Of a stretch of DNA of 64,000 bases, positions 296 to 45,061 are shown one piece after another. Both the position numbers and the translations under genes were made by a program. Source of the stretch: Sulfitobacter sabulilitoris (GTDB lineage: Bacteria; Pseudomonadota; Alphaproteobacteria; Rhodobacterales; Rhodobacteraceae); contig NZ_VANS01000007.1 in assembly GCF_005887615.1 (NCBI RefSeq), positions 1 through 64,000 of the forward strand, given 5' to 3'. The first letter of the stretch is position 1. The number at the start of each line of letters is the position of its first letter. The notes beneath the pieces were generated by a model. That model was not told where the DNA came from, did no database searches, and saw only the letters and a program-made list of their open reading frames with translations.

Positions 296-568
296 GCCAT
301 TATCCCCATTGCGAACCAGTGACACCGCCCTGACGGTCACGGATTTTTCCGTGTTATCAAAGGGGTTTGCAGGAACTGACCGAACCTCATAGACGCGCTG
401 CCAGGCCGAGGCTGGGCTCAGAATGGCCCTCAGTCTCAGTTTGGGCGAACCTCGCCCGTTGCGGTTAGGTCCTCTTTTTTTACGCATTTTCAATGGCCTG
501 ACTTCGAACCCCGCCAAAACCCAAACGCGCGATCCGAACGACCTCGATGGCGACACAGACGGAACGCG
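296..568. other. Gap between two IS6 fragments; no gene seen
   Basis: I find no supported gene here. Bases about 305-329 contain an inverted, incomplete copy of the IS terminal sequence (CATTGCGAACCAGT), which may be the eroded left end of the next element. A short perfect hairpin, CACGGA-TTTT-TCCGTG, lies at 338-353. Small open frames on both strands in this stretch look like noise. Confidence 0.4.
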
Positions 569-1176: not shown

Positions 1177-2523
1177 TCATTGGTCGTCGCACGCGGTCAG
1201 ACGCAGAAGCCAGTCGCGTGATCCGTTGAAATTCTGCGACCGTGGCGGTTCCGCGACGAAGTCCTCGCCAAGGCTCAAGGGGGTTTTGGGCACTTGGTAT
1301 TCAGTGCCGTTGCTGGGGTCATACCAGGCCGCGCAAATCGGGCCTGCGGTCAGCGCGCCGGTCTTGAGACGCAGGGTTCCGCCGGATGGCAAATAGGCGA
1401 TCGCGAACGCGCCATTGCGTGCAACGGCGCATTTCACGTCGCTGAGCGATGTGCGCCACCCACAGAGTGCGCCATCGGCGTCGTCCATCAACAACCACCA
1501 GTCTAACGGTTCGAAAAAGGCGCGCATGTGGCTCATGCTCACGGACCCGGCGCCGGACAGTTCTTCCTTCCATCCGCCCGGCGCGTCAAACAGACCACCA
1601 CTGCTGAAATGCCAGATCGGATTGTTGCCGAAGACATATCCCGCGGCGCCCGCCATGATCGCGCCGTAGGCCGCTTCACGCAGGAATTGCTCGGTCGTTC
1701 CGTGTTCGTTTTCGTAAAGGCTCTCTATCATGATCACGGGCAGGGCATATCTGTCCCGCTTCCGCGTCGCGACCTTTTCGAAGACGTCTTGGTAGGTGTA
1801 TGCGGTATCGAGATCGAGCCATGAAGCGTCCTCCCACAGAGCGGCGGTGACGGTGTCGCGACGGGAATGGACAGTCTGCAATGCGTTCGGGTCGGTTGCA
1901 CGGATCCCCTCCGCGATGGCGGAAACCAGCGAAGGATCAGGGGAATCCTCGTCGCCCCCCTGGGTCCAGATGATGTTCTCAAGATCACCGAAACGGCGAC
2001 CGAGATATTGCCCGTAGCTGCGCAGCTGGTCCGGTCCGGCCTTTCTGATCTCGCCGTACCACCCCTGCCCACCGCCGCCGGTGCCGATGTAGGCGGGCGT
2101 CAGGAACACCGCGAACCCCAGTGCCTCGGCGCGCCGGAGCACCCAGTGGACATGATCGAAATAGTCCTCGTTGGTTTCGGCGAAGGGCGTGTCGCCATTG
2201 AAAGGCAGCATACCATAGGCGTTGGCAGGCGGGTTTGAGCTGAACTGGTGTTCGATGATACTCACCAGCAGCGCATTGAAGCCACGCGCCTTGCGATCTT
2301 CCAGATAGAGTTCGACATCTTCCCTTCTCAGCTGAACCATAAGCGACCAGGCCGCATCGCCGACGATCAGCACTGGTCGGCCTTCGGCGTCCAGAAGATG
2401 GCTCTGGTCGGTCGAGACCGACAGCGGAAACACGAGAGATCGCCAGGGAAGGGTGCTGCCGCCCAAGCTGAACAAGGCCACGATCATGGCCAGCGCCATG
2501 AGCGTGCGACCCGTAGGTCCCAT
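1177..2523 (-). CDS. Secreted DUF4038-type glycoside hydrolase-like protein
   Basis: A 448-residue protein with a hydrophobic N-terminal signal segment (about residues 8-25). The body resembles the DUF4038/apiosidase-like TIM-barrel family: an early LLDAEGRPVLIVGDAAW block, a TQGGDED block near the middle, IMIESLYENEH with a candidate catalytic Glu, and a small C-terminal beta domain ending WLLRLTACDDQ. Members cleave glycosidic linkages; the substrate here is unknown. Its ATG overlaps the TGA of the upstream aminotransferase gene (TGATG), so it is the last gene of a three-gene EPS operon. It may trim or process the exported polysaccharide. Confidence is good for the family and low for the substrate. 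Confidence 0.75.
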   Translation of the reverse strand: MGPTGRTLMALAMIVALFSLGGSTLPWRSLVFPLSVSTDQSHLLDAEGRPVLIVGDAAWSLMVQLRREDVELYLEDRKARGFNALLVSIIEHQFSSNPPANAYGMLPFNGDTPFAETNEDYFDHVHWVLRRAEALGFAVFLTPAYIGTGGGGQGWYGEIRKAGPDQLRSYGQYLGRRFGDLENIIWTQGGDEDSPDPSLVSAIAEGIRATDPNALQTVHSRRDTVTAALWEDASWLDLDTAYTYQDVFEKVATRKRDRYALPVIMIESLYENEHGTTEQFLREAAYGAIMAGAAGYVFGNNPIWHFSSGGLFDAPGGWKEELSGAGSVSMSHMRAFFEPLDWWLLMDDADGALCGWRTSLSDVKCAVARNGAFAIAYLPSGGTLRLKTGALTAGPICAAWYDPSNGTEYQVPKTPLSLGEDFVAEPPRSQNFNGSRDWLLRLTACDDQ

Positions 2524-3926
2524 CACGCCCTTTCCGCTCGAACGGCGGCGGCAGGGCCGGGTGGGGTGTTGTAGCTGCGGTAAACGACCTGGGAGGGGCG
2601 GCCGACCAGATACCGTTCGACCCCGTCTTCGAGAGCGTCGCGGTAGACCTTGAGCGCGCCATCGAACGCCGCCACGGTCGCGTCGATGTCCGCCGTTTGA
2701 TGGCTGTAGCTGACCACGAGCGACGGCGCGAGTACGCCGCGCCGGATCGTCTCTTGAAGAAGGAGCGAGCGAAAGGGCTGGGACGCAACGCCCTCCGTAT
2801 CCAGCGTCTGGTAGGCGATACAGCAGTCACGCCCCGTCAGCCGCACATGTGACTGCAATCCGTGCCCTGCGATCGCGTCGTCAAGTCCCCTGCGCAGCGC
2901 CGCACCGATATCGTGCAGATGGTCAATCACCGGCTCGTCACGGTAGACTCGCATCGTCTCCGTCGTCGCGGCCAGAGCGTGAGTCTCCGCTCCGTGGGTC
3001 GTGGACAGCAGGAATACCCGCTTGCGGTCCGTGTGTTCCAGCCCGCCAAGGCGCATGAATTCCCGTTTTCCGCAGAGCGCCGAGACGGAAAAGCCGTTGC
3101 CCATCGCTTTTCCGAAGGTGGCAAGGTCCGGCTCGATTCCATAGACCTGCTGACCGCCGCCGCGGCTCCAGCGAAAACCGGTGATCATCTCGTCCAGAAT
3201 GAAAAGCGCACCGTCGCGGTGCGTGAGATCCCGCAAAGCCGCGAGATAGCCGGGCGCCGGATCCTCCCCCCGCGCGGGTTCGAGAATGACCGCGGCGATG
3301 CGACCGCTGTATCGCGCAAAGAGGGCGCGCGCGTCCGCGATGTCGTCGTAGCGAAAGCTGACCGTCAGATCACGCACGGATTTGGGCACGCCGTCGTTCA
3401 CCGGCGTCGTTCCGATGAACCAGTCGTCCGTCGAGAAGAACGGATGATCCGCGCAGATCGCGATCAACTCCCTTCCGGTATAGGCGCGGGCGAGGCGCAC
3501 CGCCGCGGATGTGGCGTCCGATCCGTCCTTGCAGAATTTGACCATTTCCGCCGCCGGGATGGAGTCGAGAAACATTTCCGCGCAGTCCGTCTCGAACGGC
3601 GTTGGACGGGTGAAGTTGCAACCGAAGTCGAGTGCGCGCCGCGCCGCTTCCACAACGGACGGGTAGCAGTGCCCGAGACCGACCGCCCGGTTTCCCATGC
3701 CGTATTCGATGTATTCGGTGCCATCGACATCCCAGACGCGGCAGCCGTACCCGCGGCGAAGGAAGCCGGGTGCAAGGGCGGGATATTGATCGTCGCCTTT
3801 CGCGTAGGTGTGCGCCCCGCCCGGTATCATGGCGTGTGCACGCTGGCGCAATGCGTCGGATGCGGCAAAGCGCCCCGCGTCCGACTGTGCAAGCCTGCCC
3901 TTAAGTCCGCCGACATGGTTTTTCAT
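2523..3926 (-). CDS. Class III aminotransferase (GSA-aminomutase-like)
   Basis: A 467-residue PLP-dependent aminotransferase of the glutamate-1-semialdehyde 2,1-aminomutase fold. PGGAHTYAKGDDQYP opens the core, DEMITGFRW carries the cofactor-contacting Asp, and FGKAMGNGF carries the Schiff-base lysine. Its place among EPS genes, with a 4-base ATGA overlap with the upstream glycosyltransferase, points to amination of a keto-sugar or of a polysaccharide substituent rather than haem synthesis. The frame stays open upstream well inside the glycosyltransferase gene; I chose the ATG at 3926 because it overlaps that gene's stop and begins the conserved alignment. Confidence 0.85.
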   Translation of the reverse strand: MKNHVGGLKGRLAQSDAGRFAASDALRQRAHAMIPGGAHTYAKGDDQYPALAPGFLRRGYGCRVWDVDGTEYIEYGMGNRAVGLGHCYPSVVEAARRALDFGCNFTRPTPFETDCAEMFLDSIPAAEMVKFCKDGSDATSAAVRLARAYTGRELIAICADHPFFSTDDWFIGTTPVNDGVPKSVRDLTVSFRYDDIADARALFARYSGRIAAVILEPARGEDPAPGYLAALRDLTHRDGALFILDEMITGFRWSRGGGQQVYGIEPDLATFGKAMGNGFSVSALCGKREFMRLGGLEHTDRKRVFLLSTTHGAETHALAATTETMRVYRDEPVIDHLHDIGAALRRGLDDAIAGHGLQSHVRLTGRDCCIAYQTLDTEGVASQPFRSLLLQETIRRGVLAPSLVVSYSHQTADIDATVAAFDGALKVYRDALEDGVERYLVGRPSQVVYRSYNTPPGPAAAVRAERA

Positions 3927-31939: not shown

Positions 31940-32760
31940 GGGCTTTGTCAGACGGGTTTGAGTTGAGGCGGGCAGGGTGGTTTCGTGGCCTTTGCAGATG
32001 ACGAAAACAGACCCTTTCAAGGGCTGTCACAGTAGCCCCGAGGTCATCCGACCGGCGGTCATGGTGCATGTTCGATCTCCGTTTTCGCACCGCAACGTCG
32101 AGGACCTGCCGCACGAGCGCGGCACCGACATCAGGCACGAAACCGAGTGCTTTTGGTGGAACAGATTCGGACCGATGTTCGCGGCAGAGATCCGCAGAAA
32201 CATTGTCAGTCGGATGTGTGCATACTCGAACTGGCAAAGGCGCCTGGACGAGGTTTTTCGTGAGGATCAACGGCGCGCGACGCTTTCTGTGGCGGGCCGT
32301 GAGTCACGAGGGAGAGGTGCTGGCGTCCTTCGCCACAAAGCGACGGGATCGCATAGCAGCATTGAAATTCCTCAAGAATTCAATGAAGCGATACGGCAAT
32401 CCGGACGTAATCGTGACCGACAAGCTCCGCTCCTATGGTGCCGCGATGAAGGTCATCGGCAATTCTGACCGCCAGGAAACGGGATGCTGGACAAATAATC
32501 GCGCGGAGAATTCGCACCTGCCGTTTCGGCGACGGGAACGGGCCATGCCGCGGTTCCGGAGCATGCGAAGTTTACACAAATGCGCCGCCGTTCATACCTC
32601 CGTCCGCACCCATTTCAATCAGGAGCGCGCTTTCTACAGCAGAGACAATTTCAAGCTCAACCGCACCGCCGCCCTTGCCGAGTGGCGCCAGCTTTGTTCG
32701 GCATAGGTTCAGGCATCTGCCGGTGAACTGAGACTGGTTCGCATTGGTCTGACAGCACCC
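31940..32760 (+). mobile_element. IS6-family element, near-complete (copy 3)
   Basis: About 821 bases, the normal length for IS6-family elements. The left end GGGCTTTGTCAGAC (31940-31953) and the inverted right end GTCTGACAGCACCC (to 32760) match at 12 of 14 positions. I see no 8-base target duplication. It lies in the same orientation as copy 1 at the window start and shares its tail sequence, so the two directly repeated copies bracket the EPS locus. Confidence 0.75.
31998..32706 (+). pseudogene. IS6-family transposase with frameshift
   Basis: The transposase begins at ATG 31998 (MTKTDPFKGCHSSPEVIRP) and runs through the N-terminal helix-turn-helix region to RLDEVF, where the first catalytic Asp lies. 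There a run of five T's (about 32252-32256) shifts the frame, and the rest continues in another frame from FVRINGARRFLWRAV through VTDKLRSYGAA and NNRAENSH to WRQLCSA. One fewer T would restore the family sequence. I call it a disabled transposase; programmed slippage is possible but not usual in IS6. Confidence 0.75.
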
Positions 32761-32786: not shown

Positions 32787-35700
32787 TCACTTGGTTTTCA
32801 GGATCTCGATTCCGCTCCAGTCGTCGGGCGCACCCTTTTCCGCCAGCCGAGACGCTCTCTCGGCCAATCGCTTCGCACCTGCATCCAATGGGTTTTGATC
32901 AGCGATGCGAGCAAACTGTTCGGCCGCTCGACCAAAGCGCGCGTTCCTCAGGTCAGCATGGGCACCCTCGAACGCGTCCCGGGTCGCGGCCTTGAGGCGT
33001 GCGCTTTCCGGTGGGTCGGCAGCGAAAACCTCATAAACGACCACAGGAAGCTCGCGCCCGATCACCCGCACTGTATCAAGCATGCGATGCGGATACCGGT
33101 CTGGCTCGGACATGGCCGAAATGACATCTTCCGAGACTGCAATGCCAGCGCCGTAAATGGCGGTCACCCCCTCCAGCCGGGACGCCAGGTTGACCGCGTC
33201 CGAAATGACATTTCCGTTCAAGCGGTGGGCATCGCCGATAATACCCATGATCAGATCCCCGGTGTGCAATCCGATGCCGGTGCCCACGGGCGAATGCCTC
33301 ACCGCCTCTCGGTCGACATTGATGCGACGGATCTCGCGCTGGATCTCCACCGCCGCCTTGACCCCTTCGTCAGGATTGCCGGGGAAAAGCGACATCATGC
33401 CATCGCCGAGGAACTGGTTGACCACGCCGTTGTTGGCCTTCACCACCGGCCCGACCCGCCCGAAATAGTCGTTGAGAAAACGGAAGGTTTCCGACGGGTT
33501 GGATTTTTCAGCAATGCTTGTGAACCCCCGGATGTCCGAGAACATCACGGTCATGCGGCGCGCGACGTTGTCGCCCAGGCCGATATCCAGAATGCTGTCG
33601 CGATCGAGGAATTTCAGGAACTCCACCGGCACGAACCGCTCGTAGGCGGTCGAGACACGGGCCAGTTCGATATGCGCATGCATCCGGGCCGACAGTTCCT
33701 CGCGCGAGAAGGGTTTGGCCAGGTAATCCGTGGCGCCCGCGGCGAACCCCGCGCGCAGGTCTTCGACCTGGTTCTTCGCTGTCAGCATGACCACAGGCAA
33801 GGACGCTGCCGGGCGCGCGGTGCGGATCGCCCGGCAGACTTCGTAGCCTGACATGCCCGGCATCATGACATCCAGTAGCACGATGTCGGGATCATACCCT
33901 TCCTCCATCCGTCGCAGCCCCTCGCGGCCGTCGCGGGCAAGCTCGACCTCGAACCCGTCCATCTCAAGGTAGTTGCGCAAGACCTCAAGGTTGATCGGAT
34001 CGTCGTCGATCACCAACGTGGAATAGCGGTGCTGGTCAGAGAGGGGCATCTGCGCCTTGATCAGTTGCCCCGAGACGTCGACCCGCGCAACCTCGCCCGG
34101 CTTGAACAGGCCGGGACCTGCGGTGGCTGTGCCAAGGCCGGATATGGGGCCGCGATCGCGATGATCCGCCAACCGCGCGATCCCGCGCAGGTTTTGCTCG
34201 GGCGCGGCGGTCGTCAACAGCAGGTCGAAGGTAAAGGCCGCGCCCTTGCCCGTGTCAGAGAGCACGGTGATCTTGCCGCCGTGCATTTCGACCAGGCTCT
34301 TGGTGATGGCCAGGCCCAGGCCGACCCCCTGGAAGCCGCTCGTGTCCGAGGCGTCGACTTTCTCGAAACTGTTGAATATTCGCGCCTGTGCCTCCTCGGG
34401 GATGCCGATGCCGGTATCGCTGACAGTGACGTGAACCCGGTCCTCCCGCAGCGCCGTGGACACCGTCACCTGTCCGCCTTCGGAGAATTTCATGGCATTG
34501 TCGACGAGGTTGAAAAGGATCTGCTGCAAACGGTTCTCGTCTGCCAGAACATTCGACCCTTCCTTGGGCACGAGGTTTCGCAAGTCGATTTCGTCCTGCA
34601 ACGCGCGGGGCTCCATCAGGGCAAAGACCACATCGACCACAGTGTGCAGGTCCAGCGGACGATTTTGCAGTTCCAACTCGCCCTCGCGCAGACGCGACAG
34701 GTCCAGGATGTCGGTCACGAGGGACGACAGCCGCTGGCCGGACGAGGCGATCAGCGAAAGCGTCGCCTTCACGGGCGCGGGCACCTCTCCCTTGGCTCCG
34801 CCGATCAATGCGTCTGCCAGTCCGATTATGCCGTTCAGCGGGGTGCGCAGTTCATGGCTGGTATTGGCCAGGAATTCGTCTTTCAGGCGGTTGACGCGGG
34901 CCAGTTCCTCGCTGGCACGTTTTTCCAGCTTCAGCGCCTCGCTCTGCCGGGCATAAAGCTGCGCGTTCGACAGGGAAATCGCGGCCAGGGACACCAGCGT
35001 CGTGAGGATCTCCTGCCGCTCGGCGGTAAACACGCCCTCTACAAGCGAATTTTCCAGGTGCAGAACGGCCTGCAAACCGCGCGAGCCGGTCACAGGCAGG
35101 CACATGAGCGATTTTGGTGCGCGGGCTTCGATATACCTCAGCCGGAAAAAGCGCGGGGCCGCACGCGCGTCTGCCAGAATGACCGGATCAAGCGAGGCAG
35201 CCACCTGCGAGACGATCTCGCGCGGGTGGTCGGAGGGTTTGAGCGTGGTCAGCGCAGGGCCATCGCGGAACACCGTCACCTTCGCATCGACGCCCTGTTT
35301 GATCCCCTCGGCGGCCAGGCGCAGGTTGCCATCCTCGCCCACCAGATAGAGTGACCCGACATCCGCGCCGGCGTTTTCGAGGGTGATCTGCATCAACCGC
35401 GTCAGCAGGGTATCCAGATTGGTGACCTCGAGGATGATCTGGCTTGCCTTGATGATCGAGGTGACATCCAGCGCATCGTCGCCTGCCGCGTCGGCCTTGG
35501 TATCGGTCCCGGCGGGTGCGAGGTCCGGCCAGTCGCGTTCGATCATCCGGACCTTGTTGGTGGCGCCCCAGGCCGCATAGGCGGCATGCGCCCGTTCGAT
35601 GAACCCGGCCTGGGCCGTGGCATCGCCCGCGTCCGCGCTGAGCGCCGCCGCGCATTCGCAGGCGATCCCGGCATAGCTCCAGACCCGTTCATCCTCGGCC

Positions 35701-38700
35701 TTGCGGATGGCCTCTTCGTAAAGCGCCATCGCCGCTTCGGTCTTGCCGGCCAGACGGGCGCATTCGGCGCCAAGCAATGGATACTGGAACCGGTGGTTGG
35801 TCGGATATTTCTCGGCCATCTTGCGCAGGGTCGCGAGATGTTTTTTCAGATGGGATCTGCGTTTCCGCTCCGATTGCGCCCCCAGTTGCGCCGATGCCCG
35901 CGTCAGGCTGAGACCCAAAAGCAGGTGATAGTCGACGAATTCCGGACCCAGTGTCGCAAAACCCTCCTGCGCGCGAAGCTTTCCGGAAAGCTCCTCGACC
36001 ATCGCCCAGTCGCCAAAGACATGGGTCAGCAGCAATTCGGTGGTGCAGAACGTCCCGACCGAGGCTTCGCCGGTCATGCTCTCTTCGATCAGGCGATCGT
36101 CCTGGGTCCAGAGCGGCGAGACCTCCGGATTGGTCAACCGATCGACGGCGCGGGTATAGATCTCGACAATCGAGCTCAGCACCTTGTTGCGCAGCCGCTT
36201 GTCATAGCGTTCAAATTCACCGAGCTGATCCGCCACCCTGTCGAGCGGGTCGCACAACAGCCAAGAGTATTTCAGGATGCTGTAGTAGTAATAACCGACA
36301 TATTCGAGATCGGCGGCCGTCCAGCTTTGAACCAGCCCTTTGCTCAGCAGGTCGCGCAATTCGCCATAGCGCCGGAAATGCCAGGCAACCACGACGCTGT
36401 AGGTATAGATGAACCGCCCTTGAACCAGCGGGCTGATATCGCGCGGTTCGAGCAGGTCGAACAGGTTGGTGCCGATCTTGTAGGCCTTGTCGACGGACTT
36501 GAAGGCCAGATAGATCACGATGGCGTAGTTCTGGATCGAAAACACTCCGGCGCTGGTCAGGCCCTTGCTCAGGGTCAGCCGCAACATGCGCAACGAGATC
36601 AGGACGAACAGGTCCTTGTTCTGCAGGAATGCCGGGGTCGAGACGATCATCAGCATCTCGATGAGCTGCTCGGCCTGCGGATCGTCCATATCCGGCAGGA
36701 TCGAGAAGTCGAAGACGTCATGACGGCGCAGTTCCAACTGGGTCGCGGTGAGCTGTGCCAGGATTTTTGGACCGGGCGCGCCGGACAGGTTCACACCCAG
36801 CAGTTTCAACCCCTCGACGCCCAGTTCGATGGCGCGGACATAGTCAGACCGCGCGGTGTGCAGGGTGACCAGGACCTGGTAGACCGACGCCTTCTGCGCA
36901 TTTGTGTCCAGATGGGCGATCAGATCGTCGAAATACGCTTTTGCCGCAGGAAACCCTCCGGTCATGAAGGCGATCTCCATCGCTTCCATCGTCAGTTCCT
37001 GAGTGATCTCGGGCTCGGTGTCCCAATTGATCCCGGTCACCTTTGCCGGCATGCTTTCGACCAGCGCCAGATAGCGTTGGGCGATGTCGTAGGCGGCGAC
37101 CGTCTTGGCCCGCCGCGCGCCGAAAATGGCGCCGCGTGTGACCAGTCGGCCGATCCCCGGTTCGTCGATCAGGTCGGCGCCCAAGGCGATCTGGTCCATC
37201 GCGCCGAACAGGCGGTCGTCGGTCGCCGGGTCTCGGATGTCCTTCAGAAGATAGGAGCCGATGCTGAAATGCCGCCGGGACCGTTCGGCCTCGGGCAATG
37301 AATGATAGGCCGCGTTGCGCACCATGTCATGGCCAAAGCGGTACATGCCCGCATCGCCGCCCAAAACCGGGATCACGAAACCTTCGGCCGCCGCTTCATT
37401 CAGGTTGCGCATGATCTCGTCATCGCTCATGTCGAGCACGATCCGAAGGGACGGGGCCAGAAACCGGGTTCCAAAGATCGCGGCGACGCGCAGCGTCTCG
37501 ACGGCAGGGGCCGAAAGCTGCTTGATCCGTTCGGTCATCAACTGGGCCACATCGGCTTCGACGACGCGTTCGGTCAGCGCGTCCATCACCCATTGCCACT
37601 GTCCGGTGCGCACATCGAAACGGATTGCGCCCTCGCTGTACAGTTCGGTCAACAGGCGCCTGACATAGAGCGGATTGCCAAGGGTCTTGGACTGGATCAC
37701 CTTGGCCAGATCATCCACCTTGACCTGCGATTCCAGATGCATCGTGTCGACGATCATCTGGCGTGTGTCCTCGATCGAAAGCGGCATCGCCTCGATCAAT
37801 GTCGTGCCGATCCGGCTGTCTTGCAGGCTGTCGAACAGGCGCCGGAGGCGGTGGTTTTCCCCGACCTCGGTGTCGCGGAAGGCGCCGACGATCATCAAAT
37901 GTGACAGTGACGCGCTCACCAGCAGGTCCTCGATCAGCGAAATCGAAGCGCCGTCGGCCCATTGCAGGTCGTCCAGAAACAGGATGAGCGGCGCCTCAGC
38001 GTCCGACAGCACCTCGAAGAACGCTTGCATGGCCAGGCGGAAGCGTTGGTTGGTTTCGGTCTGGTCACCCTTGCGGGCCGGGCCGGTATCGCCGACGAGG
38101 TGCTGCAATTCGGGAATGAAATCGGTCAGCACCGCCAGATTGTCGCCCAATCCCTCGCGCAGTCTCTGCCGCAGGCGATTGACCTCGTCGCCGTCGCGGG
38201 CCAGTTTTTCCAGCACATAGTCGCGCAAGGCCTGCACCAGGCCCAGATAGGGAAATCCCTGAATTTCGTCGTACTTCCCCGAGGCAAAGACGGGATCTGC
38301 ATCACCCTGCCGCATGTCACGCAGTTTTTCCGCGATGGTCGACTTGCCCGACCCCGAAGGTCCGCTCACCAGCAGCAACTCGACCTCGCCGGTAGCGATG
38401 TTTCCATAAAGGCGTTCGAGTTTCTGAAAGATCCGGTCCCGGCCGTACGGTTTGTCGGGAATGCGGAACGTGGCCTGCGCGTCACGCGCGCCCAGATCAA
38501 AATCCGGGATCGCCCGGTCGCGGGCGTATGCATCGCGGCACAATCTGAGGTCTGCCAAAAGGCCAAAGGCCGTCTGATACCGGCTTCCCGGCGCTTTCTC
38601 GAGCAGCTTTTGCAGGATCTTGACCACCATCGGCGGAATGTCGGCGCGCAGTTCGGTCACGTCGGGCGGCGGCACGGCAAGGTGAAGATGCAGCAACTCC

Positions 38701-39314
38701 AGCTTGTCGATACTCTCAAAGGGCGGGGCGCCGGTCAGCATCTCGTGAAACACGACGCCCAAAGCATAGAGATCGGCGCGCAGGTCGGCGACCGCGTCGG
38801 TCCGTCCGCTCTGCTCTGGCGCGCAATACAGGATTTCCGCGATGTCGCGCCCCTCGATTCCCGACGGCCGCTCGGCCGGCCGGGTCAGACAGTCCGGATG
38901 CAGTGCAAGGCGCAGCGTGCGTTTCTCGGTATTCACGAAAAAGGCGGCGGGCGACAAATGCCCGTGCGCGGTTTGCCGGTTGTGCAGCAGTTCGACGGCT
39001 TCGGCCATCTGCATCGCGAAGCCGAGGAATTGATCCGCCCGCTGCCGTCCGACGCGGATGAGCCGGCCAAGACTGCTGCCCGAAGGGTACTCCATCAGAA
39101 GTTTCACGGCGTCCTTGTTGCGTTCGAACGCCACGGGGCGGGCAAGGTACGGGCTGGGATGGTCCTGAAACAGGGCAAGGCGCGCGGCGATCCGTTCGGA
39201 TACGTCCCCCTGCGCCTGCGACGCCTCCCAGATCAGGACCGATGTGCCGTCGGGCCCGCCATCGGTCCGGTAAAGTCCGGGAGCCGAGGCTTCGTCCTGC
39301 TGGTGCGGTGTCAT
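32787..39314 (-). CDS. Giant sensor: pseudokinase, AAA, GAF, HisKA, REC, cyclase
   Basis: A 2175-residue cytoplasmic signalling protein. Residues 1-270 are a Ser/Thr-kinase-like domain with HGHLSP instead of HRDLKP, no DFG and no clear ATP lysine, so a pseudokinase. Residues 290-600 are an AAA/STAND ATPase (GPSGSGKST 318-326; LFLDDLQWAD 445-454). Residues 700-1250 are helical, TPR-like. A GAF domain lies at about 1290-1450, then HisKA with His1487 (SHELRTPLNG), HATPase with DTGIGIP and GVGLGLAI, and a receiver with Asp1815 (LLDVMMPG). A class III nucleotide cyclase domain at 1920-2095 keeps both metal Asp residues (FSDIRGFT 1925-1932; GDG 1970-1972). There are no membrane helices. The start overlaps the upstream gene by 4 bases. 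Confidence 0.85.
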   Translation of the reverse strand: MTPHQQDEASAPGLYRTDGGPDGTSVLIWEASQAQGDVSERIAARLALFQDHPSPYLARPVAFERNKDAVKLLMEYPSGSSLGRLIRVGRQRADQFLGFAMQMAEAVELLHNRQTAHGHLSPAAFFVNTEKRTLRLALHPDCLTRPAERPSGIEGRDIAEILYCAPEQSGRTDAVADLRADLYALGVVFHEMLTGAPPFESIDKLELLHLHLAVPPPDVTELRADIPPMVVKILQKLLEKAPGSRYQTAFGLLADLRLCRDAYARDRAIPDFDLGARDAQATFRIPDKPYGRDRIFQKLERLYGNIATGEVELLLVSGPSGSGKSTIAEKLRDMRQGDADPVFASGKYDEIQGFPYLGLVQALRDYVLEKLARDGDEVNRLRQRLREGLGDNLAVLTDFIPELQHLVGDTGPARKGDQTETNQRFRLAMQAFFEVLSDAEAPLILFLDDLQWADGASISLIEDLLVSASLSHLMIVGAFRDTEVGENHRLRRLFDSLQDSRIGTTLIEAMPLSIEDTRQMIVDTMHLESQVKVDDLAKVIQSKTLGNPLYVRRLLTELYSEGAIRFDVRTGQWQWVMDALTERVVEADVAQLMTERIKQLSAPAVETLRVAAIFGTRFLAPSLRIVLDMSDDEIMRNLNEAAAEGFVIPVLGGDAGMYRFGHDMVRNAAYHSLPEAERSRRHFSIGSYLLKDIRDPATDDRLFGAMDQIALGADLIDEPGIGRLVTRGAIFGARRAKTVAAYDIAQRYLALVESMPAKVTGINWDTEPEITQELTMEAMEIAFMTGGFPAAKAYFDDLIAHLDTNAQKASVYQVLVTLHTARSDYVRAIELGVEGLKLLGVNLSGAPGPKILAQLTATQLELRRHDVFDFSILPDMDDPQAEQLIEMLMIVSTPAFLQNKDLFVLISLRMLRLTLSKGLTSAGVFSIQNYAIVIYLAFKSVDKAYKIGTNLFDLLEPRDISPLVQGRFIYTYSVVVAWHFRRYGELRDLLSKGLVQSWTAADLEYVGYYYYSILKYSWLLCDPLDRVADQLGEFERYDKRLRNKVLSSIVEIYTRAVDRLTNPEVSPLWTQDDRLIEESMTGEASVGTFCTTELLLTHVFGDWAMVEELSGKLRAQEGFATLGPEFVDYHLLLGLSLTRASAQLGAQSERKRRSHLKKHLATLRKMAEKYPTNHRFQYPLLGAECARLAGKTEAAMALYEEAIRKAEDERVWSYAGIACECAAALSADAGDATAQAGFIERAHAAYAAWGATNKVRMIERDWPDLAPAGTDTKADAAGDDALDVTSIIKASQIILEVTNLDTLLTRLMQITLENAGADVGSLYLVGEDGNLRLAAEGIKQGVDAKVTVFRDGPALTTLKPSDHPREIVSQVAASLDPVILADARAAPRFFRLRYIEARAPKSLMCLPVTGSRGLQAVLHLENSLVEGVFTAERQEILTTLVSLAAISLSNAQLYARQSEALKLEKRASEELARVNRLKDEFLANTSHELRTPLNGIIGLADALIGGAKGEVPAPVKATLSLIASSGQRLSSLVTDILDLSRLREGELELQNRPLDLHTVVDVVFALMEPRALQDEIDLRNLVPKEGSNVLADENRLQQILFNLVDNAMKFSEGGQVTVSTALREDRVHVTVSDTGIGIPEEAQARIFNSFEKVDASDTSGFQGVGLGLAITKSLVEMHGGKITVLSDTGKGAAFTFDLLLTTAAPEQNLRGIARLADHRDRGPISGLGTATAGPGLFKPGEVARVDVSGQLIKAQMPLSDQHRYSTLVIDDDPINLEVLRNYLEMDGFEVELARDGREGLRRMEEGYDPDIVLLDVMMPGMSGYEVCRAIRTARPAASLPVVMLTAKNQVEDLRAGFAAGATDYLAKPFSREELSARMHAHIELARVSTAYERFVPVEFLKFLDRDSILDIGLGDNVARRMTVMFSDIRGFTSIAEKSNPSETFRFLNDYFGRVGPVVKANNGVVNQFLGDGMMSLFPGNPDEGVKAAVEIQREIRRINVDREAVRHSPVGTGIGLHTGDLIMGIIGDAHRLNGNVISDAVNLASRLEGVTAIYGAGIAVSEDVISAMSEPDRYPHRMLDTVRVIGRELPVVVYEVFAADPPESARLKAATRDAFEGAHADLRNARFGRAAEQFARIADQNPLDAGAKRLAERASRLAEKGAPDDWSGIEILKTK

Positions 39315-40342
39315 TCTTCAGTCAGCCTTTCTTGGCCTTCATGTTCGGGTCGCATGCTCTCGAAATCAGGCGTCGCAACGAGAGAGAAATAAGCTTTGGC
39401 TTCGATTTTCCGCACGCCAGCCTCACCGTCGGTTTTCAGCTTAATGTGATTGAGACCAAAGTCCAAACGTTCCGCGCCTGCGGGCCCGGTTTTGGGTCCG
39501 ATCGTCCTGCGCGGGGTCAGCTTGTTCAGGGCCTTTGCCTTGTCGCCGCTGGCCAGTCCGGCTGCGTGCAGGTCTTGGCCTGCGGTATGGTCCGCGCAGA
39601 AGCTGCTGCAAGGAAGCTCGACCCCCAGCGACGGGGCGAGCCCGTTGCCGAGATCCACATCGATCCTGCACGGTCCGGCGCGTACATGACGGTCCGCGAA
39701 GCCGGCCAAGCCGTGCGCGACATCGTCATGGCCGGGCCAGCGCAGGCGGCGGAGCACCTCCCGAACGCCATCGCCGGGAACACCGTCGAGCACCAGCCGC
39801 AGGCATGGTCCGTCGGCGGCGTCGCGGCTGGCCATGACCCCCGCCTGCCTCAAGAACACCCCGGAGGGAAGCTTGCGAAGCAAGGCGGTCACGTCGGGGG
39901 CATCGATCCCGGGCCAGATCGCACCGAACAGGGACCGAGCCATCGAGGCCGCCGCCTCCGGATCCGGAGACGCAGACCCCACGAAGAAGCTGGGAAGGCT
40001 CATGCCGCCGTGCCGCTCCATATCGAATTCGAGCCAGAGAACATCAGCCAGGGCAAGATCAGTATCGATCAGCGAAAGAACCTGCGCTGTCTTTCCAAGG
40101 TTGGCTGAACCGGAGAGCAGGGCCTCGTGGAGGCGGGCAAATGACGGCCCGCGCCGCAGCAGCGCAATGGAATAATCCATGCGGCCCGGAGGGCCGTTCA
40201 ACGCACATTCAAGAATGTGCCCGACGGCCGCATCGGGCAGCCCGCGGGAAAACCCGGTCAGCCCCACGACGCCCGCAGCCGTCGCAAACTCCGGGATCAA
40301 CGAATGAACAGCGTGAGTGAGCGTCTCTTGCCGGCAGATCAC
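39311..40342 (-). CDS. Conserved-looking protein of unknown function
   Basis: A 343-residue protein I do not recognise. It is soluble with no signal peptide. Notable stretches are VLWLEFDMER (102-111), SLPSFFVGSA (115-124), a Cys-containing segment ELPCSSFCADH (242-252) and a C-terminal LNHIKLK...EAKAYFSL (298-321) that look like conserved core elements. Start is GTG 40342; an in-frame stop lies about 10 codons upstream, so little alternative exists. It overlaps the giant sensor gene by 4 bases (translational coupling) and begins 34 bases after the 78-residue gene. It may be an enzyme or partner acting on that small protein, which is a guess from linkage only. Confidence 0.7.
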   Translation of the reverse strand: MICRQETLTHAVHSLIPEFATAAGVVGLTGFSRGLPDAAVGHILECALNGPPGRMDYSIALLRRGPSFARLHEALLSGSANLGKTAQVLSLIDTDLALADVLWLEFDMERHGGMSLPSFFVGSASPDPEAAASMARSLFGAIWPGIDAPDVTALLRKLPSGVFLRQAGVMASRDAADGPCLRLVLDGVPGDGVREVLRRLRWPGHDDVAHGLAGFADRHVRAGPCRIDVDLGNGLAPSLGVELPCSSFCADHTAGQDLHAAGLASGDKAKALNKLTPRRTIGPKTGPAGAERLDFGLNHIKLKTDGEAGVRKIEAKAYFSLVATPDFESMRPEHEGQERLTEE

Positions 40343-40376
40343 AGAGGTTTCCGACGCGGTGCGCGATCTTTATGGC

Positions 40377-40613
40377 CTACCAAAGATAGTCGCAGACGTT
40401 CTTTCCAATGAACAGGTTCAGATCGTTGCCCTGCTTTTTGCTGACGTCCTCCGCCAGCTTGGCCGGCATGCCCAGCTTTTCCAGATAGGCCTGAGCGGCC
40501 TCGGGGCTTTCGCCATACGCGTCCATGAATTCCTTCCGGGTCTCGTCGTTGACGAAACACTTGGTGATCACCTCACACGTATAAAAGGCCGGATTGCGAT
40601 CTGTGGCGTCCAT
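40377..40613 (-). CDS. 78-residue three-cysteine small protein, unknown
   Basis: A small soluble acidic protein with Cys13, Cys19 and Cys74, helix-forming middle (ETRKEFMDAYGESPEAAQAY) and the C-terminal end NVCDYLW. No signal peptide and no membrane segment are seen. The Shine-Dalgarno AAAGGAA lies about 6 bases before ATG 40613. It sits between the cytochrome-like gene (56-base gap) and the unknown 343-residue gene (34-base gap). Size and placement would fit a precursor peptide, a redox or metal carrier, or an adaptor; none is demonstrated by the sequence. Confidence 0.7.
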   Translation of the reverse strand: MDATDRNPAFYTCEVITKCFVNDETRKEFMDAYGESPEAAQAYLEKLGMPAKLAEDVSKKQGNDLNLFIGKNVCDYLW

Positions 40614-40669
40614 GGGATGTTCCTTTTCTGTTTTGTTATTATAGGTTTGTCGAAATTGCGTGTCTGGGG

Positions 40670-42127
40670 TCATTTGTTGCCTTGAACAGGAGACGAGCGT
40701 TGCAGAACATCCCTGTTGAAGGAAAAGATGAAATCGAGTGTCTCGCGCGCCGCACCCGGTTGATCGGGGCGCGCAAAGGAATGGCAGGACTGACAGCTTG
40801 ATGTGTTCTGCGTGTAGGTTTCCATGGTCGCGTTGCCCAGGATCTCGGGCAATAGGCGCCCGTTGGAATCCAGCAACTCCCACTGGGTGCCGTGCAGGCG
40901 ATAGTTCCGCAAAGGGCTGTTGGCGAACCCGCTCTTGAGCCGCGCGTTGATGCAACGGAAGTTCTGGTCATAGGCGGAACATTCCTTGACCGCGACGCCG
41001 ATCGGCTCGGCATAGTAACCCGGCGGGTAAAAGGCGACGACACGGGAGGGTATCCCTGCGGCGGCATGTTTGGGCGGGGTGTTCAGCTTGGCGGCGCCGT
41101 CCTGATCGCGGGAATAGAAGAGCCATTGCGGCACCGACGCGCCATCGGCATAGACACCGGCGGCGGTGTCGCCAACCTCTGCCCAAGTTGGAGCGACGGT
41201 ATCGTGCTCGAACGTGCCCCAGCCCCATTTCTTGAATTGGTCCGTCTTGTAGATCACGTGCAGGCCAACCAACCCGACCGGGCGAAGTGCGCAGTCATGG
41301 GTCACCTTGCCGTTCTCGACCAAGGGGGTGATATAGGCCCAGGCCTTGTGAAAGCGCATCGGATCGTGCTTTGCATCCAGCACCATCCATGATGATTTAA
41401 GGACAATCGCCCCGCGCTGCTTGCCGTTCGCGGGGGCGATCCAAAACCCTTTTGGCATCGACAGTTTGCCGTTCTTGTGCAGAAAGCCTTCCAGGCCACG
41501 CGCGTCAAAAAGCTTGTTCTCGACCGTGTAGTCATAAGCTTGCTTGTTGAAGATCACATCATAGCGAACCGGCACGCCGTTTCGGTCCAAAAGCGCACGG
41601 CCCTCCGGGTTCAAATACTCGTCCAGCAGGCGTGGCTGCATGGTCATGGGAATGTCTGCGGCATAGGGGACCGAAGCCATTGCGGCTTCCAGGTCAAGCT
41701 CGGCGCAGGCGGCGGGCAGGGGATAGGCGGTGCTGTCCCAGGGCAGCGGCGGCTGGTCGCCCCGAAAAATCTGGTTGGTGCTTTTCCAGGTCTCCCAGAC
41801 CGCGGTCCATGAGCCATCAAGCTTGGCCTGATAGTCTGGAACGCCCGGCATCGCCTTGCCATTTTCATCAAGCTTCACCGGCCAATTGATGGCTGCGAAT
41901 ATCTTGGCCGTGAAACCGTCGGCCTGATTGGCCGTGATGGTGTTCACATCACCGATGAAACAGGCATTGACTGTGTTGTTGACTGGTTTGACGGCGGCGG
42001 TCTTGCACGAACAGGCCAGTTGATCGATCGGGTCGCACTCTGACGCCGATTGCGCCTGTACCGCACCGCCGCCCAAACATACGCTGACGGCGGTTATCAA
42101 CAAACGCCGGGAAATTCGATTGATCAT
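40670..42127 (-). CDS. Secreted monoheme cytochrome-like protein
   Basis: A 485-residue protein with a signal peptide (residues 1 to about 25, ending GGGAVQAQSA). A Cys-rich segment follows (CDPIDQLACSCK). A single c-type heme site, CQSCH, lies at 445-449 close to the C-terminus, within a domain that begins RLHGTQWELLDSNGRLLP. The large middle domain is unfamiliar. Export plus heme points to a periplasmic redox protein or redox sensor. It is the first gene of the four-gene operon ending with the giant sensor, so it could provide the extracytoplasmic input; that is inferred from linkage. Confidence 0.75.
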   Translation of the reverse strand: MINRISRRLLITAVSVCLGGGAVQAQSASECDPIDQLACSCKTAAVKPVNNTVNACFIGDVNTITANQADGFTAKIFAAINWPVKLDENGKAMPGVPDYQAKLDGSWTAVWETWKSTNQIFRGDQPPLPWDSTAYPLPAACAELDLEAAMASVPYAADIPMTMQPRLLDEYLNPEGRALLDRNGVPVRYDVIFNKQAYDYTVENKLFDARGLEGFLHKNGKLSMPKGFWIAPANGKQRGAIVLKSSWMVLDAKHDPMRFHKAWAYITPLVENGKVTHDCALRPVGLVGLHVIYKTDQFKKWGWGTFEHDTVAPTWAEVGDTAAGVYADGASVPQWLFYSRDQDGAAKLNTPPKHAAAGIPSRVVAFYPPGYYAEPIGVAVKECSAYDQNFRCINARLKSGFANSPLRNYRLHGTQWELLDSNGRLLPEILGNATMETYTQNTSSCQSCHSFARPDQPGAARETLDFIFSFNRDVLQRSSPVQGNK

Positions 42128-42416: not shown

Positions 42417-43424
42417 TCAATCGTGGCTTGCGTGATACACCAACCGGAACCCGATATGAGAGGTGGAAGTGTCCGGTGACGTGCTGTTGCGCGCGGCGAT
42501 GCGGTAGCGATAGCAATAGCTGCGGTGGCATAGAAATGATCCGCCCTTGCTGAGCTTGTATCCCGTCTTGCCGGCATGTGCCGCAGCAACTGCCTTTTTG
42601 AGGGATTGAACCTTGAAGGTTTCGCTGGTCAACTCCCAGACATTGCCGACCATGTTGTAAAGCCCGTAGCCATTCGGGTCGAAGGATCGCGCGGGCGCTG
42701 TCCCGAGGTAGCCGTCGCGCGCGGTGTTTTGCCGTGGAAACTGCCCCTGCCAGATGTTGCAGGGGAAAAACCCGCTGTCATCGGGTTCGGTATCGCCCCA
42801 GGGAAAGGGATGGTCGCCCAAACCGCCGCGCGCTGCGTGTTCCCATTCCGCCTCGGTCGGCAGGCGACCACCGGCCCATTGCGCAAAGGCGGTCGCATCG
42901 TTCCAGGACACATGCGTGACCGGATGATCCATGTCGGGGCGCTCCGCGCTGCCCGGCCCGAACGGAGTGCGCCAGTTCGCACCTTCGATCACCCGCCACC
43001 AGGGCGTCTCCGCGATGGCGCGGCTGGGCGGTGACCCCTTGGGCAGAAGGCCCTGAAACACCAGCGAATCCCCCATGCGTTCTGCATCGGTGACATATCC
43101 GGTTTCGGCCACGAAAGCCTGAAACCGGGCGGTCGTGACGGCTGCCGTATCCACGCTGAACGCCTTGATTTTCTTCCTGCGCAGCGGGCCTTCGCCATCA
43201 AGCGGAAAGACCGGGCGATTGGTCCCGACAAGCGCCTGCCCGCCGGGAATGACCGCGACATGCCGCTCTACGACTGCCTTGCCTGGTTGCACGGGTCGGG
43301 GCGTCGGCGCTGCCGCGTCTGTCGGCGCCTTTCGGCTGGGTGAGCAACAGGATTTCACGGCTCGGCAATGCTCCGTTCGGCCAGGACGCGACCCATCTTG
43401 ATCGGCTTGGGGGCGGTCCGCCAC
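42417..43424 (-). CDS. Formylglycine-generating enzyme
   Basis: About 335 residues from GTG 43424, directly after the sulfatase stop. The core starts near residue 55 (HVAVIPGGQALVGTN) and has the FGE-sulfatase fold: HPVTHVSWNDATAFAQWAGG, LPTEAEWEHAARGG, NMVGNVWELTSE. The end block GGSFLCHRSYCYRYRIAAR contains both active-site cysteines (299 and 304), which separates true formylglycine enzymes from look-alikes. It oxidises the CxPSR cysteine of sulfatases to formylglycine and here surely matures the adjacent one. The first 50 residues look unstructured, so the true start may be further in. Confidence 0.9.
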   Translation of the reverse strand: MADRPQADQDGSRPGRTEHCRAVKSCCSPSRKAPTDAAAPTPRPVQPGKAVVERHVAVIPGGQALVGTNRPVFPLDGEGPLRRKKIKAFSVDTAAVTTARFQAFVAETGYVTDAERMGDSLVFQGLLPKGSPPSRAIAETPWWRVIEGANWRTPFGPGSAERPDMDHPVTHVSWNDATAFAQWAGGRLPTEAEWEHAARGGLGDHPFPWGDTEPDDSGFFPCNIWQGQFPRQNTARDGYLGTAPARSFDPNGYGLYNMVGNVWELTSETFKVQSLKKAVAAAHAGKTGYKLSKGGSFLCHRSYCYRYRIAARNSTSPDTSTSHIGFRLVYHASHD

Positions 43425-44987
43425 TTATTTCTTGGCGTGCCTTGGGTGTTGCGGCGGCGTGACGGGAACATAGGGAAAGCGCCCGCGCTGTTTGGTGGCG
43501 GTCGTGCTGGGGTCGCTGCCACCGCGCACATAGACCTTGGCGGGATCATAGTGCGGTCCGAAATCCCACGACGGGAAGCGGCCGTGTTTCATCGCGGATT
43601 GCACAAAGATACGCTTGCGCTGCGATGCCCTGATGCGCCGATCCAGATCGTCTTCGTCCCACCGGGCCATCATCTCGGCGAACAGGGCGTCCAATTCACG
43701 TCGGTAAGCGGGATCGGCTGCCAGGTTATTGAGCTCAAGCGGATCCTCTGCGAGGTCGAAGAGCATCTTGGGGTCGGTGCGGCTGTGCACCAGCTTCATG
43801 TTGCCCCTGATCAGGATCAGGGCAGGGGCATAGAGCCCTTCGCCGTTGAATTCGATGAATATCCTGTCCTCCGGGCTGCCGCGTTCGGGCAGGTTCAGCA
43901 GGCTGCGCCCATCGTGGGGAGCGGCGTAGCCATCGAAGGTTCCGTCGCTGGCGATATCGGTGAAGGTCGGCAGAAGGTCCACTAGAGACGCCAGCGCCTC
44001 TTCGCGGTGCCCGGCCCTGAATTTCGGCCCCTGCGCGATCAGCGGCACGCGGATCGAGGCCTCGAAAGGGTTGAACTTGAACCACATGCCGCGCTCGCCG
44101 AGCATTTCGCCGTGGTCGGACGTGATGAAGATATAGGTGTTGTCCAGCTGACCGATGCTTTGCAGTGTTTCGATCAGTCCGCCGACCAGTTCGTCGAAAT
44201 GGGTGACCATCGCGAAATAGCCGCGCCGGGCTTTGTAAAGCTGCTCGGGCGTGATGTCGAATTCGTCCTGCCGGATGGTCAGGTAATAGCGCTGCGCCCA
44301 GGGGTCGCGGTCCTCATAGGGGATATGGGCCACCTGCGGTTCGGGGATATCGACGCCTTCGTACATGTCCCAGTATTTCCTGCCGGCGACAAAGGGGTTG
44401 TGCGGCTGGGTAAAGGATACATGCAGCATGAAGGGGCGGTCGTCGGTCGACCGGGCGTGATTGTACATTTCCTGCTTGGCGGCGGCGAAGACCTCTTCGT
44501 CATAGTCGATCTGGAGGTTGCGTTCGCAATGGCCTGCTTCGACCACGCTCAGCAGGCTCATGACCGATGGGGCGTAGGGCTCGTCGGTCTGGTCCCAATC
44601 GGCGGTCCAGGCGAAATCCGAGGGGTAGATGTCCGTGGTCACACGTTCCTCGAAGCCGTGCAGCTGGTCGGGGCCGACGAAATGCATCTTGCCCGACAGG
44701 GTGGTCTTGTAGCCAAGCGCGCGCAGGTAGTGGGCGAATGTCGGCTCCGACGGCAGGAATTCCGCGCCGTTGTCGTAGACGCCCACGTCTGACGGCAGCC
44801 GCCCGGTCATCATCGAGGCGCGCGAGGGGCCGCACACCGGGTTGTTGCAGTAGCTGTTGGTGAAGGTCGTGCCATTCTCGGCCAGCTTGTCGATATTGGG
44901 GGTGATGGCGTAGGGCTTGCCATAGGCCGACAGGCAAAGCGCGGTCATCTGATCGGCTTGAATGACAAGGATATTGGGGCGGGACAT
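43425..44987 (-). CDS. betC: Choline-sulfatase-like type I sulfatase
   Basis: A 520-residue cytoplasmic sulfatase without signal peptide. The metal site NILVIQADQM and the sulfatase signature CGPSR with Cys52, the formylglycine position, are followed by TGRLPSDVGVYDNGAEF, ITSDHGEMLGERGMWFK and a C-terminal extension (DDLDRRIRASQRKRIFVQSA, WDFGPHYDPAKVYVRG) like that of BetC choline-sulfatases. It would hydrolyse choline-O-sulfate or a similar small sulfate ester taken up by the linked TRAP system. ATG 44987 has GAGGAA about 5 bases upstream. Substrate assignment is by resemblance; betA/betB are not in the window. Confidence 0.8.
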   Translation of the reverse strand: MSRPNILVIQADQMTALCLSAYGKPYAITPNIDKLAENGTTFTNSYCNNPVCGPSRASMMTGRLPSDVGVYDNGAEFLPSEPTFAHYLRALGYKTTLSGKMHFVGPDQLHGFEERVTTDIYPSDFAWTADWDQTDEPYAPSVMSLLSVVEAGHCERNLQIDYDEEVFAAAKQEMYNHARSTDDRPFMLHVSFTQPHNPFVAGRKYWDMYEGVDIPEPQVAHIPYEDRDPWAQRYYLTIRQDEFDITPEQLYKARRGYFAMVTHFDELVGGLIETLQSIGQLDNTYIFITSDHGEMLGERGMWFKFNPFEASIRVPLIAQGPKFRAGHREEALASLVDLLPTFTDIASDGTFDGYAAPHDGRSLLNLPERGSPEDRIFIEFNGEGLYAPALILIRGNMKLVHSRTDPKMLFDLAEDPLELNNLAADPAYRRELDALFAEMMARWDEDDLDRRIRASQRKRIFVQSAMKHGRFPSWDFGPHYDPAKVYVRGGSDPSTTATKQRGRFPYVPVTPPQHPRHAKK

Positions 44988-45061
44988 GGCAGGTTCCTCG
45001 GTTCGGAAATCTTTCATCCGGGCTGCGTTCCCGGCAACCCGGATGGCGGGCGAATGTGCGG

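Follow-up and report, generated by a model that had tools for sequence, protein, structure and literature searches.

A conserved four-gene cassette of Sulfitobacter sabulilitoris combining a predicted ABBA-fold protein, a Trp-ended small protein and a hybrid histidine kinase-cyclase: a putative modified-peptide signalling system

A four-gene cassette was characterized on the minus strand of a 64,000-nucleotide (nt) stretch of Sulfitobacter sabulilitoris DNA (contig NZ_VANS01000007.1, positions 1 to 64,000; hereafter the window). Its genes were named CYT (485 amino acids (aa)), SMALL (78 aa), MID (343 aa) and HK (2175 aa), and they encode, in this order, a secreted cytochrome-like protein, a small protein ending in Trp, a protein with a predicted ABBA barrel and a large multidomain sensor. 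In its general form, the cassette is read here, with confidence slightly above even, as a modified-peptide signalling system, and the full chain of steps proposed below is less certain than this general form. The gene set and its co-inheritance, the predicted fold of MID, the location of MID relatives in clusters for ribosomally synthesised and post-translationally modified peptides (RiPPs) and the invariant tail of SMALL were observed directly.

A previous reading of this DNA, made from its letters alone (the sequence-only reading), had described four minus-strand genes with intergenic gaps of 56, 34 and -4 bases, and the coordinates of the open reading frames confirmed this layout. It had also proposed that the four genes belong together. 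Their homologues were not rarely adjacent in other genomes: all six full-length copies of MID, the window's included, adjoin the other three genes, and the order CYT-SMALL-MID-HK was found on one strand in 6/6 loci, each counted once (window, Seohaeicola, Shimia, two Sulfitobacter records, L028 and L030, and genome G450). Chance proximity of the genes is excluded by this conserved order. The first junction measured 43-56 bases and the second 21-34 bases across the six loci, while an overlap of -89 in Shimia stems from choosing the longest start of HK. The GTG start of MID was backed by the five other full-length copies, which begin at the same position with M-I-C or, in L028, also with GTG; an apparent internal TAG in the Seohaeicola copy was its own stop codon, the match having overrun the end of the gene.

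The distribution of the cassette was assessed by several searches with MID. The protein search of 149 genomes of the family gave one further full-length relative, in G137, in a locus that repeats the four-gene order of the window; a match in G023 (E 9e-4) was judged to be due to chance, comprising 61 residues within a longer unrelated open frame (L003). The scan of genome contigs yielded four loci, two in Sulfitobacter (L028, L030), one in Seohaeicola zhoushanensis (L029, taken as the G137 locus) and one in Shimia aestuarii (L031, taken as the G317 locus), the latter two being entered only once in the counts. Searching 390 order-level genomes added full-length copies in G317 and G450 and distant relatives in G358, G380 and G164; six matches with E between 1e-3 and 1e-2 were left out, and matches of one further search other than G000 and G164 were not counted. 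Among these 390 genomes SMALL was present in three, and full-length MID and cassette-type CYT (E < 1e-200) were present in the same three; 15 further genomes held distant CYT relatives only (E <= 1e-5). The cassette recurs in marine bacteria, and the genera Sulfitobacter, Seohaeicola and Shimia are assigned to Roseobacteraceae in NCBI.

Across the six loci, sequence distances of HK correlated with those of CYT (Mantel r 0.83; 2/720 permutations as high), SMALL (r 0.67; 7/720) and MID (r 0.71; 14/720), and those of SMALL correlated with those of CYT (r 0.78; 3/720). The flanks of the cassette, of which ten proteins were scanned, vary between loci (Table 1). An IS240-type DDE transposase gene fragment is located directly behind HK (window 32068-32706), and a second IS240-type DDE transposase is located at L024 5180-5602, beside the Shimia cassette. 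These transposases are consistent with mobility of the unit, which is self-contained, patchily distributed and probably mobile. No relatives of MID were detected in viral contigs, and the window's MID retrieved none from plasmids, where its distant relatives used as queries gave three to four records; SMALL, MID and CYT had no match in PHROGs.

No match of MID to a Pfam or NCBIfam model attained the model's cut-off. The named ABBA sequence families of Pfam and NCBIfam, including the cyanobactin F-family, did not match the window's MID, nor did any of nine members scanned against NCBIfam match one, and sequence-only searches for solved relatives of CYT, SMALL and MID returned none that was convincing. 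A structure model of MID, built from nine aligned sequences, had a predicted local distance difference test (pLDDT) of 86 and a predicted template modelling score of 0.87, and its topology is helix-helix-strand-strand repeated five times, as in an ABBA barrel of about ten antiparallel strands. All 50 matches listed by Foldseek against the PDB were prenyltransferases of ABBA kind, counting AmbP3, whose title is silent and which we take to be one of them. With VIA-align, 132 of 997 aligned chains reached a Z of at least 8, and the 50 entries listed were ABBA-fold prenyltransferases. The best of them was MpnD (Z 18.2, root-mean-square deviation 3.7, 289 aligned), followed by CymD (17.8), IptA (17.6), PriB (17.5) and FgaPT2 (17.5); identities among the matches listed were 6-14%, and 9-12% for the enzymes just named. 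Rows within Z 1 of each other are tied, so no single enzyme can be called the closest to MID, and absence from these lists does not exclude a family. MID almost certainly adopts the ABBA fold, and it is quite likely a prenyltransferase.

The alignment of MID comprised 15 sequences, the other 14 sharing 18-40% identity with the window's copy. Residues E45, D56, E105, D107, G168, R173, R182, G240, H299, K301, K316 and Y318 were invariant (15/15), ten of these 12 being charged, His or Tyr, and D230 and E242 were kept in 14/15. Since 11 of the 12 invariant residues map to predicted strands, the model suggests that these residues form an active site.

The surroundings of its relatives connect MID with RiPPs. 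The seven distant relatives reached by sequence, L025-L027 with the window's MID profile and L060-L063 on plasmids with L025 and L027 as queries, all occur in RiPP clusters, with genes for NHLM exporters, Nif11 or NHLP precursors, LanM, and YcaO or radical S-adenosylmethionine (rSAM) enzymes as neighbours (Table 1). L025 and L026 are from one genus, L026 having been judged from matching gene lengths in the same order, and no precursors were detected in either within the stretches read. NHLP searches led to three further loci with MID relatives (L115, L117 and L122), where RiPP context is therefore not independent evidence. No relatives of HK, CYT or SMALL (E <= 1e-3) were found in the stretches of these ten loci. 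MID outlines a family of ABBA-fold proteins, covered by neither Pfam nor NCBIfam models, whose members recur among NHLP, Nif11, lanthipeptide and YcaO clusters in both proteobacteria and cyanobacteria. At L060 6983-8776, the MID-like domain forms the N-terminal part (residues 10-363) of a protein of 597 aa whose annotation is 2OG-Fe(II) oxygenase, which may be a fusion. At L117 6037-12660 (G929:C23), an NHLP precursor ending LCCCW adjoins a MID relative and a SagD-type YcaO protein; a further neighbour, without NCBIfam match, may be flavin halogenase-like, judging by eye.

The second gene provides the candidate substrate. SMALL ends with Trp followed by the stop codon in 6/6 copies, with a tail N-[V/I]-C-x-Y-L-W in which F68, G70, N72, C74, Y76, L77 and W78 are the invariant residues. 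Invariant columns are concentrated at the C-terminal end (7/11, vs 11/68 before it; Fisher p = 0.002). The three Cys noted by the sequence-only reading are present, although only Cys74 is conserved in 6/6 copies, and its suggestion that the product might be a peptide is in line with the invariant Trp-ended tail. We consider it likely that SMALL is the substrate of MID, and somewhat favour Trp78 as the modified residue.

Of 19 precursors beside MID relatives, drawn from eight loci, nine end in Trp. Seven of the eight NHLP precursors of L063, beside the Azospirillum MID relative, have diverged cores and end in Trp, compared with a background of 6/309 long open frames, and Pseudanabaena (L060) and L117 have one Trp-ended precursor each; the L063 count covers eight precursors with leader, and that of L060 omits a 32-aa annotated Nif11 fragment. 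Trp is second from the precursor end in L061 and third in L122. The link between the MID enzyme family and Trp-ended precursors is suggestive, not clean. Two loci of other kinds were recorded during this survey. At L119 13985-16539 (G760:C66), four of five detected Nif11-type precursors end KKW or KQW, and the whole 42.7-kb contig contains no MID relative. In L114 (G894:C42), where the stretch read holds no MID relative, seven precursors are of NHLP type; Trp lies close to the beginning of the core in most of them, and none is Trp-ended.

HK contains the domains listed in Table 1 and shares 55% identity with the Seohaeicola copy. The approximately 800 residues after AAA_16 have no Pfam domain, the sole match there having E 0.17. 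This protein had been presented as a giant kinase-cyclase with both phosphorelay and cyclic-nucleotide output, and the H-box, the receiver Asp and both metal-binding Asp of the cyclase are indeed kept. The designation as kinase holds for the histidine-kinase part but not for the N-terminal domain similar to protein kinases. The ATP lysine, the Asp of HRD and DFG are catalytic motifs of protein kinases; in 6/6 copies the lysine and DFG are absent and HGH replaces HRD, so this domain is probably a pseudokinase. No clear membrane helix was recognised in HK, the highest 19-residue hydropathy being 1.54-2.02 in the six copies. Whether HK is the receptor of a modified peptide we regard as an even bet.

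CYT had been described as a secreted CxxCH protein: the window's copy has a hydrophobic N-terminus and one CQSCH at residues 445-449, near the C-terminus, and all six copies retain the CxxCH together with several Cys. It belongs to no Pfam family and its structure model was poor (pLDDT 50). The surroundings of distant CYT relatives were read in six of the 15 genomes. Two relatives adjoin GMC dehydrogenases (L054, L055), and one of these has a weak FAD-SLDH-like small subunit as a further neighbour; another relative (L058) lies two genes from a tyrosinase. Owing to the GMC neighbours, electron transfer is plausible. The proteins of L054, L055 and L058 represent a family of CYT-related CxxCH proteins without Pfam model. 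The sequence-only reading had placed a periplasmic haem or redox signal at the centre of the system, an idea that is not supported: the predicted ABBA fold of MID and the RiPP clusters of its relatives suggest that the signal is a peptide modified after translation, with CYT accessory or unexplained.

The following mechanism is proposed. SMALL would be a ribosomal precursor whose N-terminal part serves recognition and whose C-terminal tail reads N-V-C-x-Y-L-W. With a prenyl diphosphate as donor, MID would prenylate this tail, most likely at its final Trp. The modified tail, perhaps cleaved, would be the ligand of HK, where, as a guess, the region of about 800 residues after AAA_16 may consist of helical repeats binding the peptide intracellularly. 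Output would proceed via the histidine kinase and receiver, perhaps also via the cyclase. CYT might act outside, possibly as an electron-transfer partner working on exported peptide, which is likewise a guess.

Several data weigh against this mechanism. No recognisable exporter or leader protease is encoded by the four genes, and the ten scanned flanking proteins share no common one. Scans up to E 10 gave SMALL no convincing match to NHLP, Nif11 or other leader families: the six SMALL members were not hit by NHLP models of NCBIfam at E <= 10, nor was the position of SMALL when four cassette genomes were searched with an NHLP model, while the SMALL profile reached only Prob 5 and 6 against NHLP and Nif11 leaders. 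Homology to these leaders was not accepted, though column shuffles scored as high in only 1/100 and 0/100 cases. Distances of MID and SMALL, the supposed enzyme and substrate, are uncorrelated (r 0.17; 168/720 permutations as high), and those of MID and CYT correlate weakly (r 0.53; 86/720). Trp-ended precursors occur in only three of the eight MID loci (L060, L063 and L117), and none was found in L027, L061, L062 (0/5 precursors), L115 or L122; furthermore, precursors from six MID-free loci end in Trp in 4/21 cases, all four in the L119 Nif11 cluster. This MID-free count includes six Nif11 precursors of L118 and L121, read directly (0/6 ending in Trp), whose genes were missed by four-sequence leader models and found by the NCBIfam model. 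MID keeps four acidic residues in 15/15 sequences and two more in 14/15, so that its pocket may be something other than a plain site for diphosphate. The residue with which cyclases choose the substrate is usually Lys; in HK it is Gln or Asn in 6/6 copies, which makes the product of the cyclase uncertain. Finally, prenyl transfer, the substrate role of SMALL, the Trp site, the receptor role of HK and any role for CYT are steps that we infer.

These data leave room for other explanations, some of which retain the peptide. MID may have kept the ABBA fold while catalysing another reaction on a peptide, or only binding one, as its conserved acidic residues and the absence of any sequence model tying it to known prenyltransferases would allow. 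However, R182, H299, K301, K316 and Y318, on barrel strands, are also invariant in 15/15, and the use of Mg2+ by cyanobactin ABBA enzymes (PMC13290415) would itself be expected to need acidic residues; this explanation is considered unlikely. The modified peptide might instead be a natural product, for example an antimicrobial, aimed at other cells, with HK only regulating its production. The RiPP clusters of MID relatives do have exporters or several tailoring enzymes of the kind typical for natural products. In the cassette, however, a single precursor is accompanied by a single candidate modifying enzyme and by no exporter gene that could be recognised, and a tail that is nearly invariant in 6/6 copies would fit a single conserved receptor better than a weapon; a product of this type is considered unlikely.

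Two further explanations give SMALL another role. The product of MID could be a prenylated small molecule (e.g. a prenylated indole) and SMALL a carrier or adaptor of HK; the nearest folds do act on free Trp, indolactam or cyclic dipeptides, and SMALL lacks a known leader family. This is improbable in view of the RiPP clusters around the seven distant relatives found by sequence and of the conservation of SMALL, which is densest at its C-terminal end, with Trp as the last residue. A haem sensor, in which secreted CYT detects a redox or gaseous ligand and the small protein relays this to the sensor in the cytoplasm, would agree with CYT being the first gene and conserved in 6/6 loci, and with a plausible function in electron transfer given that two of six distant relatives adjoin GMC dehydrogenases. 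Because HK has no clear membrane helix, however, a path for the signal from CYT into HK is lacking, and a haem sensor assigns no role to an ABBA-fold protein of a RiPP-associated family; it is considered very unlikely.

The statement that no described system has this gene set was too strong, as analogous sets are found in PalPXQ (PMC10853753) and ComQXPA (PMC4008528, PMC5331326); no published description of the cassette as such was found in the open literature. In PalPXQ of Paenibacillus alvei, a histidine kinase, a Trp-ended precursor and a peptide prenyltransferase are likewise adjacent, the latter two roles being putative in the cassette. PMC10853753 describes PalX as an NHLP precursor with core DNVRRFFW and a conserved C-terminal Trp, which is prenylated by PalQ, an enzyme of isoprenoid-synthase (trans-isoprenyl-diphosphate-synthase) type whose activity is lost when residues follow the Trp. 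The tails DNVRRFFW and NVCxYLW share N-V-x-x-aromatic-x-W, a stretch so short that the likeness may be due to chance. PalQ resembles trans-isoprenyl-diphosphate synthases, whereas MID has the predicted ABBA fold; PalX has an NHLP leader and SMALL a leader of no known family; and the sensor of the cassette adds AAA, GAF, receiver and cyclase domains, the cytochrome being extra. The cassette thus resembles PalPXQ in layout without belonging to it, as enzyme fold, leader and receptor differ.

ComQXPA, a pheromone system of Bacillus (PMC5331326), also consists of four genes on one strand, for a prenyltransferase, a Trp-prenylated prepeptide, a histidine kinase and a receiver; in 6/6 cassette loci the genes for the putative prepeptide and the putative prenyltransferase lie next to that for the histidine kinase. 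ComQ has an isoprenoid synthase fold and MID, by contrast, a predicted ABBA barrel, not all-helical; ComP is a membrane kinase with ComA separate, while HK is without clear membrane helix and has the receiver fused; and the modified Trp of ComX is internal, whereas that proposed in SMALL is C-terminal. Hosts of PalPXQ and ComQXPA are Gram-positive, and those of the cassette Gram-negative; the 2014 census reported no comQXPA-like loci outside Firmicutes (PMC4008528).

Among ABBA enzymes, PagF, KgpF and LimF of the F-family and NctPC, an enzyme of low similarity (PMC13290415), have the barrel predicted for MID and modify ribosomal peptides, KgpF and NctPC acting on Trp (PMC13290415, PMC7253389), and the cyanobactin enzymes hold the diphosphate with one or two Mg2+ (PMC13290415). 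They differ in having been described from natural-product pathways, whereas MID has no family-model match and lies beside a sensor kinase. MpnD, CymD, IptA, PriB and FgaPT2 share the fold (Z 17.5-18.2, 280-293 residues) but use small-molecule substrates and have 9-12% identity to MID. The NHLP and Nif11 clusters with MID relatives share with the cassette a MID-family protein and, in 3/8 loci, some Trp-ended precursors, and differ in that several carry exporters, LanM, YcaO or rSAM enzymes. A prenyltransferase in a RiPP cluster is not new in itself, since PMC8120280 places an indole prenyltransferase gene inside a thioamidated RiPP cluster type.

Table 1. Location and content of the cassette genes, HK domains, cassette flanks and loci with MID relatives. 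HK domains are given in residues of HK.
Feature	Location	Strand	Description
CYT	40670..42127	-	485 aa, secreted, monohaem cytochrome-like; one CxxCH and N-terminal conserved Cys cluster
SMALL	40377..40613	-	78-aa putative precursor peptide; C-terminus N-[V/I]-C-x-Y-L-W-stop
SMALL tail codons	40377..40400	-	Tail residues 72-78 (NVCDYLW) plus stop codon; proposed core, with Trp78 as proposed prenylation site
MID	39311..40342	-	343 aa, GTG start, predicted ABBA prenyltransferase fold
HK	32787..39314	-	2175-aa multidomain sensor, no clear membrane helix
HK pseudokinase-like domain	41-247		Pfam and motifs
HK AAA_16 ATPase	289-476		Pfam
HK GAF	1299-1448		Pfam
HK HisKA	1478-1545		Pfam
HK HATPase_c	1592-1700		Pfam
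HK receiver	1767-1877		Pfam
HK class III cyclase	1920-2087		Pfam
Flank, L023			ABC-transporter ATPase
Flank, L024			IS240-type transposase
Flank, L028			Enolase-superfamily gene
Flank, L030			One side rsfS and SPOUT methyltransferase; other side aminotransferase
MID relative, L025			NHLM secretion set, PoyD-like epimerase (just under cut-off), YcaO, TfuA
MID relative, L027			Nif11 precursor, LanM
MID relative, L060	Pseudanabaena galeata plasmid pPg_03		LanM, Nif11 precursors
MID relative, L061			Nif11 precursor, rSAM methyltransferase
MID relative, L062			Nif11 and NHLP precursors, PoyD-type enzyme
MID relative, L063	Azospirillum sp. B510 plasmid pAB510a		NHLP precursors, LanM
Precursors of L063	L063 41-6009	one strand	Eight NHLP-type precursors, beside MID relative and LanM; eighth (2794-3153) ends QQ

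Outside the cassette, a choline-sulfatase gene and an FGE-like (sulfatase-modifying) gene are located at 42417-45017 of the window, on the same strand and upstream of CYT by 289 bases; no relatives of them were marked in L023, L024, L028 and L030, and none was read in L005. No Rfam families or tRNAs were detected in the 64,000-nt window.

The most specific form of the proposal is a Gram-negative prenylated-peptide pheromone system, convergent with ComQXPA and PalPXQ, in which a new ABBA enzyme would prenylate the final Trp of a precursor bearing a new leader type, together with a soluble ATPase-containing hybrid kinase-cyclase that reads the peptide intracellularly and passes the signal to phosphorelay and cyclic nucleotide; this is offered tentatively and with more doubt than the general form. 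If it were true, prenyl-peptide signalling would also exist in Alphaproteobacteria, where both the fold of the enzyme and the receptor would differ. The MID family could, in addition, assign a function to genes annotated as 'hypothetical protein' in NHLP, Nif11, lanthipeptide and YcaO clusters.

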